NCBI GenBank assembly: GCA_913065025.1
Contig: CAJYAP010000008.1
Span: 1 to 40,120, forward strand
DNA: 40,120 bases
From: an uncultured Gammaproteobacteria bacterium
Lineage (GTDB): Bacteria > Pseudomonadota > Gammaproteobacteria > Poriferisulfidales > GCA-002705445
Reading direction: 5' to 3'
The notes under the pieces were generated by a model, which did no database searches, was not told the origin of the DNA, and saw only the letters and a list, made by a program, of their open reading frames with translations. How positions within the stretch are numbered: the first letter of the stretch is position 1; each line of letters starts with the position of its first letter. The position numbers and the translations under genes are program-made. Positions 27,218 through 38,037 of the stretch are shown here, piece after piece.

Positions 27218-27793
27218 CTATATAAAGTCTTTTGCTAATTCAAATCTTACACTTTCAGTAATTATATGGGAGGCATCGTACTCAGGATGACTTACTCCAA
27301 TAGAAACAGGACTTCCATTTTTAAAGTCATGAATTTGATTTTTACTAAACTCCCATCTCAAGAAATGAACTGCTGAAGTTTTAGTATCATCTTCTCTCTC
27401 CAAGTCTTCATCTGCAATTGGATACACTAAATCGTTAGTACCAACTTTTATCCAAATTTTCTTTTCTACGCCTTTTAATTTCTGTAATTTTATTTTCCTT
27501 TCAGAAACATCTGAATATTCTATCAACATAGTAGCTTTAAGATTTTTTCCCTCTGGAATTAATGGATTATAGGTGTCAAGTTCTTCTTGAATTAATTCGG
27601 ATTCAAAAATTTTCTCTATCCTTAGCATTTCTTGAATTTGATATTTTATTGTTAAAGAATTTTCAAATAGTAAATTTATATGATTACCAACTAAAATTGA
27701 TCTGTGTTTCTTTGTCGCAAGAACCTCAGATTTAAATTTTTTCCTTTCTATAGAATATTCTTCTAATTTATAAAGATCTTCTTTTTTTAACAT
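27218..27793 (-). CDS. DUF3501 family protein
   Basis: A 191-residue soluble protein of the DUF3501 family. Stretches such as RKKFKSEVLATKKHRSILVGNHINLLFENSLTIKYQIQEMLRIE and FLRWEFS fit the family as I remember it. The function is unknown, but these proteins are found after rubrerythrin and an Fe-S oxidoreductase, as here, suggesting a shared peroxide or redox role. The ORF track starts at 27805; I prefer the ATG at 27793 because GGAGA sits six bases upstream, while the earlier ATG has no ribosome site. No cysteine cluster or membrane segment is visible. Confidence 0.85.
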   Translation of the reverse strand: MLKKEDLYKLEEYSIERKKFKSEVLATKKHRSILVGNHINLLFENSLTIKYQIQEMLRIEKIFESELIQEELDTYNPLIPEGKNLKATMLIEYSDVSERKIKLQKLKGVEKKIWIKVGTNDLVYPIADEDLEREDDTKTSAVHFLRWEFSKNQIHDFKNGSPVSIGVSHPEYDASHIITESVRFELAKDFI

Positions 27794-27810
27794 AATATTC
27801 TCCATGTCAT

Positions 27811-29172
27811 TTAAATTTCGTAAGCAGATTTCAAAATAGATATTGGATGTAACTCTATTTCAATATTATTTTTATTAAGTGCATTTCCTATATGTTTTGC
27901 AGCCATTGGACAATCACTTGTAAAAACTTTATATTCATCTTTTTCAATCCTTGATACTACTGGTTTTCTTATTTTTAAAGATTTTTTGAAAGACTCTAAT
28001 TTTATTGCATATGTTCCATCATGTCCTGAACATCTTTCTATCATTGTAATTTCTGATCCTGGTATTTTAGATAGTATATTTTTTGTTTTAGGGCCAAAAT
28101 TTTGTACTCTTTGATGACAAGCAGTTTGGTATGCTATTTTTCCAGTAGAATTTTTAAATTCAGAATTGAATAAACCTTCCTCATCTCTAAGATTCAAATA
28201 TTCAAATGGGTCAAAAATACTTTTCTGAACTAATTTAACGTCTTCATTATCTGGAAATAGTAAAGGTAACTCTTGTTTAAACATTAGTACGCAAGATGGG
28301 ACTGGGGAAACAATATCATAACCTTCTTTTACCGCTTTTACTAAATTAGGTATATTTTTCTTCATTAGCTCTTCAACAGATTTTAAGTCTCCTAGTTCAA
28401 GTTTTGGCATACCACAACAATTTTCATTATTAAAAATTTCTGTTTGAATATTGTTATGTAAAAAAACTTTTATTAGATCTTCGGCTAATTCTGGCTGGCT
28501 ACTTGTACAATAACATGTTGAGAATAATTTTACTTTTCCATTTGTTTTTTGAGTCTTAGTAATATTTATTTTGTAATTTTTTATTTTTTCAAATCTTTTT
28601 TTAATATTATTAGAATTCATTAATGGTAAGTCAGCATCTCGGTGTATTTTTAGCATCTTTTCCAATATTATTCTTACGATTCTATTTGTTAATAAATAGT
28701 TTATTAGATTTGATATAATAGGGTATGAGCCATTTTTAAAGACTATATCTGTAGAGCTTAGAATATAATTTCTTAACTTCATCATTTTTTTTGTATTGCT
28801 ATTTTGTGTTTTAAATTTTTCTGCTTTGGCTCTCAACATCAAATGAGGGAAATCTATCGCCCATTCATGCGGCGGCACGTAAGGACATTTAGTTTGATAA
28901 CATAAGTCGCACATATAGCATTCGTCCACGACTTTAATAAAGTCTTTTGTATCTACAGATTCTAAATCAAAGTTTTCTGATTCATCTATTAAATCAAATA
29001 AAGTTGGAAATGCCTCGCAGAGACTTACGCATCTTCTACATCCATGACAGGCTTCGAAGACACGACTTAACTCATTATTTATTGACTTTGTGTCGTAAAA
29101 GAGATCTTCTTTCCATCCTATATTATGTCTAGTTGGGGCCGACAAACCGCCTTCTGTTGTATTCACAGACAT
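27811..29172 (-). CDS. Fe-S oxidoreductase with CCG domains (heterodisulfide reductase/GlpC-like)
   Basis: A 453-residue protein. Two [4Fe-4S] motifs sit near the N-terminus: CHGCRRCVSLC (Cys42, 45, 48, 52) and CYMCDLCYQTKCP (Cys85, 88, 91, 96). Two CCG-type domains follow, with NENCCGMP in the first and ERCSGHDGTYA in the second, where CSG replaces CCG. It resembles GlpC and HdrB-like electron-transfer subunits, but belongs to the branch that travels with rubrerythrin and DUF3501. It probably passes electrons to the rubrerythrin; that is inference from context. A GGAG site precedes the ATG. Confidence 0.88.
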   Translation of the reverse strand: MSVNTTEGGLSAPTRHNIGWKEDLFYDTKSINNELSRVFEACHGCRRCVSLCEAFPTLFDLIDESENFDLESVDTKDFIKVVDECYMCDLCYQTKCPYVPPHEWAIDFPHLMLRAKAEKFKTQNSNTKKMMKLRNYILSSTDIVFKNGSYPIISNLINYLLTNRIVRIILEKMLKIHRDADLPLMNSNNIKKRFEKIKNYKINITKTQKTNGKVKLFSTCYCTSSQPELAEDLIKVFLHNNIQTEIFNNENCCGMPKLELGDLKSVEELMKKNIPNLVKAVKEGYDIVSPVPSCVLMFKQELPLLFPDNEDVKLVQKSIFDPFEYLNLRDEEGLFNSEFKNSTGKIAYQTACHQRVQNFGPKTKNILSKIPGSEITMIERCSGHDGTYAIKLESFKKSLKIRKPVVSRIEKDEYKVFTSDCPMAAKHIGNALNKNNIEIELHPISILKSAYEI

Positions 29173-29237: not shown

Positions 29238-29654
29238 TTAAGCTACTTCATCCAATGCTTTTTGGAATCTATTTGCATGAGATCTTTCAGCTTTAGCTAA
29301 AGTCTCAAACCAATCTGCAATTTCATCAAATCCTTCGTCTCTAGCAGATTTTGCCATTCCTGGATACATATCAGTGTATTCATGAGTTTCTCCAGCTATA
29401 GCTGTTTCTAGATTAGCCACTGTATCTCCAAAAGGTTTACCTGTTGCAGGATCGCCACATTCTTCGAGATACTCTAGATGACCATGAGCGTGACCAGTTT
29501 CACCTTCTGCTGTTGATCTAAATACTGCTGCAACATCGTTATATCCTTCTACATCAGCTTTAGCAGCAAAATATAAATACCTTCTATTAGCCTGTGATTC
29601 TCCAGCAAAAGCATCTTGGAGGTTTTTTTCAGTTTTTGAACCTTTTAAGTCCAT
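29238..29654 (-). CDS. Rubrerythrin-like diiron protein without a rubredoxin domain
   Basis: A 138-residue four-helix ferritin-like protein. Likely diiron ligands are Glu19 (AGESQANRRY), Glu52/His55 (EGETGHAH), Glu89 and Glu92 (GETHEY) and Glu123/His126 (AERSHANRF). It ends at about residue 138 with no CxxC rubredoxin module, so it needs an outside electron donor, probably the downstream Fe-S protein. Such proteins reduce hydrogen peroxide. The ORF track start is ten codons too early; the ATG at 29654 has an AGGAGA ribosome site. A promoter and an OxyR operator lie directly upstream. Confidence 0.92.
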   Translation of the reverse strand: MDLKGSKTEKNLQDAFAGESQANRRYLYFAAKADVEGYNDVAAVFRSTAEGETGHAHGHLEYLEECGDPATGKPFGDTVANLETAIAGETHEYTDMYPGMAKSARDEGFDEIADWFETLAKAERSHANRFQKALDEVA

Positions 29655-29688
29655 GATATTTCTCCTATTAAATTTAAACTTCAATTCA

Positions 29689-29716: not shown

Positions 29717-29753
29717 GACGTTAAAAACTATATTATATATAGATAATAACTAT
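29717..29753. promoter_or_regulatory. Predicted OxyR operator
   Basis: The known OxyR site is ATAG-N7-CTAT-N7-ATAG-N7-CTAT with T and A at fixed inner positions. Here CTAT (29728-29731), ATAG (29739-29742) and CTAT (29750-29753) match perfectly at exact seven-base spacing. All four inner T/A positions also fit; only the first quarter (GACG at 29717) does not. It lies 33 bases before the oxyR ATG and touches the rubrerythrin -35 box, so it could activate rubrerythrin and repress oxyR. Confidence 0.7.
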
Positions 29754-29786: not shown

Positions 29787-30701
29787 ATGAATATACGAGA
29801 TTTAGAATATTTAATTGCAGTATCAAAACATAAAAGTTTTGTAAAAGCTTCGTTAGAATGTCATGTATCCCAACCTACTTTAAGTGGTCAAATAAGGAAA
29901 CTTGAAGGTTACCTTGGAGCTCAAATCTTTGAAAGGACTACCAAGCAAGTGACAGTGACCAGCTTTGGAAAAGAAATTATTAATAAAGCAAGAGTAATAA
30001 TAGATAAGACATATGAGATAAAAAATTTATCGACTGATTATCAAGACCCTTGGCATCAACCAATTAAGATTGGTGTAATTCCATCTTTAGGACCTTATTT
30101 GATTCCTAATTTCATATTGAACTTGAGAAAAAATAATAAAAGCTCAAAAATATTTATAGATGAAGACATTACCGAGAATATTACAAAAAAACTTGAAAGT
30201 AGAGAGCTTGATGTTATTTTATTAGCAACTGACGTTGATAGTGAAAAATTCGAACAAATTAAACTTTTTGATGAGCCCTTCTGGGTGGCATATTCAAAAA
30301 ATAAAGAACTTGATAAGCTCGATGAAATAAAAACAACAGACTTAAACTTAAAACAGATGCTTCTTCTTTCTGATGGCCATTGTCTTAGAGATCAGATAAT
30401 GGAAATTTGGGAGGCTTATGATAAGAATAATATATTGCATCGATATGATACCAAAGCTTCAAGTTTAGAAACATTGGTAAATTTAGTATCTGTAGGAGAA
30501 GGGTTTACATTTGTTCCTGCTCTTGCACTTCAATCAGCATGGACAACTGATAAAGGCATACAGGTAAGAAAATTAAATCACAAGAAAGCCTATAGAAGAA
30601 TAAGACTTGTTTTTAGAAGAAATTATTATAAAAAAGATTTATTAACAAACCTATCAAAAATACTTTTAGAATTTCTTCCTAACACTGTTAAGAAAATATA
30701 A
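29787..30701 (+). CDS. oxyR: OxyR-type LysR hydrogen peroxide regulator with Trp at the resolving-cysteine position
   Basis: A 304-residue LysR regulator, close in length to E. coli OxyR (305). The N-terminal helix-turn-helix reads ECHVSQPTLSGQIRKLEGYLG, nearly the OxyR form, and the effector domain includes PSLGPYLIPNFI, LFDEPF, DGHCLRDQ, SSLETLVNLVSVGEGFTFVPALAL. The peroxide-sensing Cys199 is present at exactly that position. The usual partner Cys208 is Trp208, and the only other cysteine is Cys25 in the DNA-binding domain. The normal intramolecular disulfide therefore cannot form. It is divergent from the rubrerythrin operon, with an OxyR-like operator between. Confidence 0.93.
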   Translation: MNIRDLEYLIAVSKHKSFVKASLECHVSQPTLSGQIRKLEGYLGAQIFERTTKQVTVTSFGKEIINKARVIIDKTYEIKNLSTDYQDPWHQPIKIGVIPSLGPYLIPNFILNLRKNNKSSKIFIDEDITENITKKLESRELDVILLATDVDSEKFEQIKLFDEPFWVAYSKNKELDKLDEIKTTDLNLKQMLLLSDGHCLRDQIMEIWEAYDKNNILHRYDTKASSLETLVNLVSVGEGFTFVPALALQSAWTTDKGIQVRKLNHKKAYRRIRLVFRRNYYKKDLLTNLSKILLEFLPNTVKKI

Positions 30702-35877: not shown

Positions 35878-36498
35878 TTAGTTAGGACCATATGCGAATG
35901 GTGATGCTAAACCAACCTTCCCTGTTTGAGAGAAGTTTTTACCATTACCTGTATATGTATTCTTAACAGATTTGAATACTTGAATATCGAATGGAGGTGC
36001 AACTGCTAATGGCATGTTACTAACTTTAACAGCACCGCCATCCATTCCAGTTACAGCAACAAGTTCTTCGTGACCTACATCACCTATTTTGAGAAGTTTC
36101 TTTTCACTAGAATCTTCTATAGTGATTGGAGCTTTCTCAGCACTCATTACTTCTCCTACTAAACTAGCTATTACGGCTAAGTGGCCGCCATGATTTCCGC
36201 TCCACAATTCGCATATTGCATTGAATTGCTCGTCTGAAGCACCGTCATCAACATATAAAGCCAATGACCATCCACCATCAGTTAAATTTCCTGTTTCCCC
36301 TTTACATGGGGCATGTAGCCAAGCAGCAACTTTTCTTCCACTTAAATCTACGCCATCTAAGTTACCCTCATCTATTGTCCATCCCACTTGAGCTTCACAA
36401 AAACCTTCTGTTGGTGGCTCTAAAAATATGCATGGACAAACTAAATCACAATTACATGATTCAAAATAATTACCCTTTACGCTCCAATTGTCTGACAT
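35878..36498 (-). CDS. DUF1326 family cysteine-rich protein
   Basis: A 206-residue protein. The N-terminal motif ESCNCDLVCPCIF gives Cys15, 17, 21 and 23, with Cys34 soon after and His62/Cys65 in LHAPC, a likely metal site. Later stretches GWSLALYVDDGASDEQFNAICELWSGNHGGHLA and the C-terminal DIQVFKSVKNTYTGNGKNFSQTGKVGLASPFAYGPN match the DUF1326 pattern as I recall it. Function is unknown. DUF1326 and DUF2182 genes often sit together, and here they are divergent, with a copper-chaperone domain in the DUF2182 protein, so copper handling is a reasonable inference. GGGGAG precedes the ATG. Confidence 0.88.
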   Translation of the reverse strand: MSDNWSVKGNYFESCNCDLVCPCIFLEPPTEGFCEAQVGWTIDEGNLDGVDLSGRKVAAWLHAPCKGETGNLTDGGWSLALYVDDGASDEQFNAICELWSGNHGGHLAVIASLVGEVMSAEKAPITIEDSSEKKLLKIGDVGHEELVAVTGMDGGAVKVSNMPLAVAPPFDIQVFKSVKNTYTGNGKNFSQTGKVGLASPFAYGPN

Positions 36499-36735: not shown

Positions 36736-38037
36736 ATGTCTAGTCAAGAAAATTTAAGCAGAATACAAAAAAATACTGTTATCGCAGGAATACTAGCTGT
36801 TTCATTAGCTGGCTGGTACTTTCTTTTTGCTATGGATGCGAATATGAAAAGTATGAATATGGATATGTCTAGCGGCATGCACATGAATATGAAAATGGAA
36901 CAAAAATCCAAAACAAAAATGGAAATATCTGCATCTGAAATGAAAATATCAAGACCTGTCGTTAGACTTGTGCCTCCAAATTTAGGCATGACAGCTGGCT
37001 ATATTACATTGGAGAATTTATCTAATGAAAATGTAAGCTTAATCGGAGCTTCATCTAAGGACTATAATAGTATTGAGATTCACGAAACTATCATTGATAA
37101 CGACAAAGCAATGATGAATGCCATTGAATCACTTGAAATAAAAGCAAAGAGTAAATCAGAATTAAAGCCTTTAGGATATCATTTAATGTTAATGGGCCCA
37201 TTAAAAGTATTTAAGGAAGATGACAATGTAATAATCAATCTTATCTTTGCTAATGGAAAACAAATGAGTGTTGACTTTACTGTTAAAAGAAATGTTATGG
37301 ATATGGAAATGGATATCGATATGGATCACGGTGATATGGGAATGATGGATGTAGATACCTGGTTACCAAACACATGGTGGATGCCACCAATGCACAATGT
37401 GTGGAGCTCAAATGACTTTTATCAGCTTGTTATAATGTGGTCAATAATGATGGTGGCAATGATGAGCCCAAGTATTATTCCCACAGTTTTAATGTTTGCT
37501 ACTGTCAATAAAGCAAAACAAAAAAATAATTTACAATACACCCCAACCTACATTTTTTACTTTGGCTACCTGATTGCATGGATATTATTTTCAATTGCAA
37601 TTTCTATTATTCAATATCCTCTCCACCAGATCAGTCTAATAAATCCTATGATGGCATCGATGAATAATTATTTCTCTGGTCTAGTTTTAATACTTGCTGG
37701 AATATATCAATTAACTCCTTACAAAAATGCTTGTCTAGATAAATGTCGATCACCTTTATCACTAGTTATGTCTAAATGGAAAGATGGTAATTTTGGTGCA
37801 TTAAGAATGGGGCTTGGACATGGATTTTATTGTGTATTTTGTTGTTGGTTCTTAATGGCTATCTTACTAGTAGCCGGTGTTATGAATATGTACTTTGTAG
37901 TTGCTCTTACGGTTTTTGTTCTTTTAGAAAAACTAATTTTGACTCCAGAATCTTTTGAAAATACTTTTCAGAAATTAATTACAGTAGTTCCAGGCATAGC
38001 CTTTATAATAGGCGGTATATACTATTTATTTAGCTAA
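36736..38037 (+). CDS. DUF2182 membrane protein with an inserted PCuAC copper-chaperone domain
   Basis: A 433-residue protein. TM1 spans about 15-33. A Met-rich linker (about 33-62, MDANMKSMNMDMSS) follows, then a PCuAC (DUF461) domain (about 63-186) with His116, Met127, His149 and Met151, exactly H-X10-M-X21-H-X-M. A second Met/Asp/His linker (188-206) leads to the DUF2182 core: MWSIMMVAMMSPS (234-246), further helices, CLDKCRSPL and GHGFYCVFCCW (361-371). DUF2182 proteins usually run from TM1 to TM2 through a short loop, so the chaperone is inserted there and probably faces the periplasm. It likely handles copper; direction is unknown. AAGGGA precedes the ATG. Confidence 0.88.
   Translation: MSSQENLSRIQKNTVIAGILAVSLAGWYFLFAMDANMKSMNMDMSSGMHMNMKMEQKSKTKMEISASEMKISRPVVRLVPPNLGMTAGYITLENLSNENVSLIGASSKDYNSIEIHETIIDNDKAMMNAIESLEIKAKSKSELKPLGYHLMLMGPLKVFKEDDNVIINLIFANGKQMSVDFTVKRNVMDMEMDIDMDHGDMGMMDVDTWLPNTWWMPPMHNVWSSNDFYQLVIMWSIMMVAMMSPSIIPTVLMFATVNKAKQKNNLQYTPTYIFYFGYLIAWILFSIAISIIQYPLHQISLINPMMASMNNYFSGLVLILAGIYQLTPYKNACLDKCRSPLSLVMSKWKDGNFGALRMGLGHGFYCVFCCWFLMAILLVAGVMNMYFVVALTVFVLLEKLILTPESFENTFQKLITVVPGIAFIIGGIYYLFS

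Follow-up and report, generated by a model that had tools for sequence, protein, structure and literature searches.

In the textbook description of Escherichia coli OxyR, the regulator is switched by the formation of a disulfide bond between Cys199 and Cys208. Whether such a disulfide or the modification of Cys199 only drives OxyR signalling is debated in the literature, mostly on the basis of engineered mutants. Published substitutions of Cys208 support both a single-cysteine switch and a lost response to peroxide. In Pseudomonas aeruginosa, the C208A protein sustains wild-type basal expression of katA and ahpC but no longer responds to H2O2, the C199A protein is unresponsive to H2O2 and devoid of DNA binding, and a persulfide on Cys199 has been described as a single-cysteine activated state (PMC13295329). 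The C208A form of Neisseria meningitidis OxyR represses and does not activate (PMC2881104), and induction by H2Sn is lost in the C208S mutant of the E. coli protein (PMC6831875). A C208 mutant of Kim et al., to the extent that this work is cited in PMC2225504, was not hypersensitive to peroxide; this mutant and the persulfide state speak for single-cysteine function. Loss of induction, the usual outcome when Cys208 is replaced by engineering, tells against a single-cysteine switch; the same mutants may also be compatible with a persulfide sensor. The only natural OxyR with one sensing cysteine that the literature searched yielded, DR0615 of Deinococcus radiodurans, has been proposed to use sulfenic acid (PMC2225504). 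It has lost the equivalent of Cys199 and retains that of E. coli Cys208, namely C210 (PMC2881104), in agreement with the mutagenesis primer for C210A, which encodes FDQVMHW[C]ADAG (PMC2225504).

The window, by which we mean the whole 40,120-nucleotide stretch of DNA analysed here, from an uncultured gammaproteobacterium, carries an oxyR gene that translates at full length with no internal stop [Table 1]. Its product matches the Pfam domains HTH_1 and LysR_substrate, the LysR helix-turn-helix and substrate-binding domains, and OxyR is the nearest family by profile (top NCBIfam model, 236 bits, E 4e-70), by structure library (closest PDB entry P. aeruginosa OxyR 4x6g, E 3e-42) and by tree. The score falls short of the equivalog cut-off of NF008361 (329 bits), which is a naming threshold and not a mechanistic feature; since the Cys208-bearing relatives L118 (225 bits) and L017 (265 bits) are likewise below it, the shortfall reflects divergence of the lineage from the model and not the loss of Cys208. 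Translation and reading of the codons bore out the preliminary description in that Cys199 is present, Trp occupies position 208 and Cys25 is the only other cysteine. Cys199, the single redox cysteine of the regulatory domain, sits in a conserved pocket in which His198, Arg201, Thr129 and Gln203 are all present; at position 100, Thr is replaced conservatively by Ser, as it also is in the Cys208-bearing sister genus.

Table 1. Coordinates of the oxyR gene, its divergent neighbours and the predicted binding site in the window.
Feature	Position	Strand	Remarks
oxyR	29787..30701	+	304-aa LysR-type regulator with Cys25, Cys199 and Trp208; uninterrupted translation
Cys199 codon (TGT)	30381..30383	+	Peroxidatic position, motif GHCLRDQ
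Trp208 codon (TGG)	30408..30410	+	Sister genus and TMED78 have TGT (Cys)
Predicted OxyR-box	29717..29753		Between oxyR and rbr; ATAG-N7-CTAT-N7-ATAG-N7-CTAT on the - strand
rbr	29238..29654	-	Rubrerythrin lacking a rubredoxin domain at its C terminus; runs divergently from oxyR; ATG at 29654, preceded by AGGAG, is the probable start (a longer ORF begins with TTG at 29684)
CCG/4Fe-4S protein gene	27811..29172	-	GlpC-like; directly after rbr, same strand
DUF3501 protein gene	27218..27805	-	Final gene of the block

This protein resembles the two-cysteine OxyRs of E. coli, P. aeruginosa and N. meningitidis in its LysR architecture, its motif with Cys199, its pocket, the spacing of its box and the presence of a divergent regulated gene; it differs from them in having Trp208, no intramolecular disulfide and apparently a single target block. 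With DR0615 it shares the possession of one sensing cysteine, but the cysteine kept is Cys199 and not the one at the Cys208-equivalent position. Like the engineered C208A and C208S variants, it has Cys199 and lacks Cys208; unlike these single changes made in proteins that evolved with the disulfide, it is natural, has long been kept and carries a bulky Trp. Descent and locus both identify it as an OxyR, yet it belongs neither to the two-cysteine disulfide-switch type nor to the Deinococcus type. The literature that we searched yielded no previously described natural OxyR with Cys199 only, an absence which is not proof.

Cys208 in close relatives would, according to the preliminary description, have made Trp208 a sequencing error or a one-off. 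The alignment of related OxyRs that it called for refutes this view, as Trp208 is conserved in three species of the genus, that is, in all three that bear the block. The two congeners concerned (L003/L015 from SI034_bin82, 84%; L004/L016 from ERR598965_bin.33, 82%) share an identical GHCLRDQIMEIWEAYDK segment with the window, and Cys208 begins at the sister genus, whose OxyR (L098/L118, 62% identical) reads GHCLRNQIIEIC and has TGT at the TGG codon of the window, such that a single base change suffices to account for the difference. Each of the 78 OxyR rows that genome contigs yielded from outside the Trp208 clade, among them that of TMED78 (49% identical), carries Cys208, and in the tree the Trp208 clade (support 100/99) is nested inside the Cys208 OxyRs. 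Pairwise dN among the three Trp208 species is approximately 0.09-0.11, with dS at least 1.6 or saturated; oxyR is under purifying selection and is not decaying. Without Cys208, the intramolecular Cys199-Cys208 disulfide is excluded. A substitute resolving cysteine elsewhere in the protein was considered and rejected, for only Cys25 and Cys199 are common to the three species, none of whose other regulatory-domain cysteines is shared (Cys120 of L003 has no counterpart).

Other OxyRs without Cys208 were found upon surveying 369 sampled genomes of the class with two complementary DNA patterns extending from GHC[LF][RS]DQ through residue 208. The T-start pattern gave 106 matches, 97 of them with Cys at 208. 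Altogether, Cys208 is missing in 11 of about 108 OxyR-motif matches, a share of some 10% that is approximate because the 97 Cys matches were not individually checked and the patterns exclude TNA codons and OxyRs devoid of the motif. Residue 208 is Trp in G000 and G003, Phe in G298, G093, G220 and G358, Tyr in G313 and G209, Leu in G151 and G263, and Ile in G044. The Phe, Tyr, Leu and Ile proteins (L103-L105, L123-L131) come from other gammaproteobacterial lineages, and the window's OxyR is like them in retaining Cys199 and in having a bulky side chain, hydrophobic or aromatic, at position 208. Cys199 is kept in all 11 cases, as the pattern itself required. No second strong OxyR match (E <= 1e-25) was detected in the Cys208-less genomes, G044 excepted, and the weaker second match in G044 is not OxyR-like at position 199. 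Matches in G027, G066 (contig 100) and G314 and the second match in G381 were discarded as not being OxyR after ORF reading or homology search. The minimum number of changes at position 208 on a tree of 35 rows is five, although the GHCFRDQ branch is weakly supported internally; most of the non-Trp proteins lacking Cys208 fall in this branch, and their origin on the tree is separate from that of the Trp208 clade. Judged from these sequences, Cys208 has been lost by several independent events in the Gammaproteobacteria.

The predicted OxyR-box between oxyR and rbr, whose - strand sequence is ATAGTTATTATCTATATATAATATAGTTTTTAACGTC, agrees with the consensus at 13 of 16 bases; three of its half-sites are perfect and the rubrerythrin-proximal one is degenerate. 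Out of 500 shuffled versions of the region, not one equalled its score, and its core is conserved in relatives with Trp208 and with Cys208 alike. This is the only site in the searched genome with a perfect CTAT-N7-ATAG-N7-CTAT. A scan of the genome for a wider regulon, allowing at most one mismatch, returned 12 sites versus 24 in the reversed control, and no further OxyR targets are therefore claimed; a sigma-70 promoter scan of the oxyR-rbr intergenic region performed no better than shuffles. The rubrerythrin is 96-99% identical in both Trp208 congeners. The divergent order of oxyR, rubrerythrin, Fe-S protein and DUF3501 genes recurs in L017, L018, L021 and L118, which have Cys208, and in all Trp208 species. 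The Fe-S protein of this conserved block could donate electrons to the rubrerythrin that lacks a rubredoxin domain.

Three of the 11 genomes of the genus have oxyR and rbr together and eight have neither; no congener has one gene without the other. The four genes sit between pcnB and ogt and are present or absent as a unit, pcnB and ogt being adjacent and the whole block missing in five of the eight oxyR-less congeners (the five in which the site was read). As the block occupies the same position in the sister genus, it is probably ancestral and was lost as a unit, a deduction that goes no further because the within-genus species tree is too poorly resolved for losses to be counted. A second LysR regulator (L002; G000:C10:32738-34077), 21-25% identical and without Cys199, lies within a few hundred bases of, and convergent with, an AhpC/TSA-family peroxiredoxin gene in all 11 genomes of the genus searched.

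On the basis of these comparisons, we consider it slightly better than an even bet (probability of about 0.52) that the window's OxyR is a selected ortholog acting as a dedicated local regulator that switches through modification of the single thiol of Cys199. It would regulate the divergent rubrerythrin, Fe-S protein and DUF3501 genes as well as its own gene from one shared box. Cys199, the only regulatory-domain thiol common to the three Trp208 species, would act as the switch. On reaction with peroxide or with a sulfane-sulfur species, it would become a sulfenic acid, a mixed disulfide with glutathione or a persulfide; the modified residue, without any disulfide to position 208, would change the tetramer on the box such that rubrerythrin is induced. 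All three modifications are chemically possible given that the genome encodes gshA, for glutathione synthesis, and seven AhpC/TSA-family matches, and that a monothiol glutaredoxin gene lies within the window; glutathione made by the gshA product, together with the glutaredoxin, could form and reset the Cys199 adduct. The preliminary description had gone further, proposing that sensing in this OxyR must proceed through sulfenic acid, glutathione or another mixed disulfide, unless the protein is held constitutively in one state. Its premise, that a Cys199-Cys208 disulfide cannot form, stands; its "must" is too strong, because published C208 mutants can retain basal activity or repression yet lose peroxide induction (PMC13295329, PMC2881104).

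These same mutants lend substance to a second reading, doubtful in our judgment and still a serious one, whereby the regulator is frozen: it would occupy the box in a reduced-like state, hold the expression of rubrerythrin and oxyR at a fixed level and not respond to peroxide, with Cys199 serving a structural or DNA-binding role. The Neisseria C208A protein represses and cannot activate (PMC2881104), and the Pseudomonas variants, basal-only for C208A and without DNA binding for C199A (PMC13295329), behave in kind. Retention of Cys199 alone is no proof of sensing, because some of these OxyRs lose binding or repression when the residue is changed to Ala or Ser. The loss of the block from other congeners might be read as if the value of regulation were declining. 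The AlphaFold2 model of the protein (mean pLDDT 85, pTM 0.68; approximately 55-80 in the blocks just after residue 200) is suggestive in the same sense, as it has a single helix spanning residues 199-211, with Cys199 at its start and Trp208 inside, that resembles the reduced form; its full-length structural match is 4x6g, and the best regulatory-domain structures among the matches listed are reduced OxyRs. AlphaFold2, however, yields one state irrespective of biology, and the model is for this reason not evidence on switching. Against a frozen regulator, Cys199 and its pocket are kept here and in every examined lineage without Cys208 (Cys199 being a requirement of the survey pattern), and a regulator that merely fixes a level would be odd under purifying selection in a genome of about 1 Mb.

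Less probable again, and in our view unlikely, is a switch between polypeptide chains, in which Cys199 would be resolved by the Cys199 of another subunit, by Cys25 or by a partner protein in a redoxin or peroxiredoxin relay. Modelling of the Neisseria tetramer places Cys199 near the dimer-dimer interface (PMC2881104), and the AhpC/TSA-family proteins of the genome provide conceivable partners. A redoxin gene is nonetheless absent from the block, no intermolecular OxyR disulfide was found in the literature searched, and Cys25 is not a special replacement partner, as it lies in the DNA-binding domain and almost all of the OxyRs compared possess it. An error of sequencing or assembly at codon 208, or an oxyR gene decaying into a pseudogene, might be suspected in a draft genome of 36 contigs that is about 83% complete, but is scarcely credible given that three species, each assembled separately, share the Trp codon, and given the intact frames, the low dN/dS and the conserved promoter box.

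Extending the single-thiol switch (SOH, S-SG or SSH) from the window to the survey, we suggest, tentatively and at somewhat less than even odds, that a natural class of Cys199-only OxyRs with a bulky hydrophobic residue at 208 has arisen repeatedly in the Gammaproteobacteria. Were this class to exist, it would be evolutionary evidence that OxyR signalling can dispense with the Cys199-Cys208 disulfide. OxyRs naturally kept without Cys208, the Trp208 protein of this marine bacterium among them, constitute an independent test of the need for the disulfide: induction of their target by oxidant would mean that the disulfide is not obligatory, whereas a locked state would reveal what OxyR is worth as a regulator that simply binds DNA. 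Such a test is simple here because the regulon is small and has a single box.

Elsewhere in the window, a single protein (36736-38037) is a fusion of a copper chaperone domain, PCu(A)C, with a PpoB2 domain, and the gene encoding it is adjoined, on the opposite strand, by a DUF1326 gene (35878-36498).
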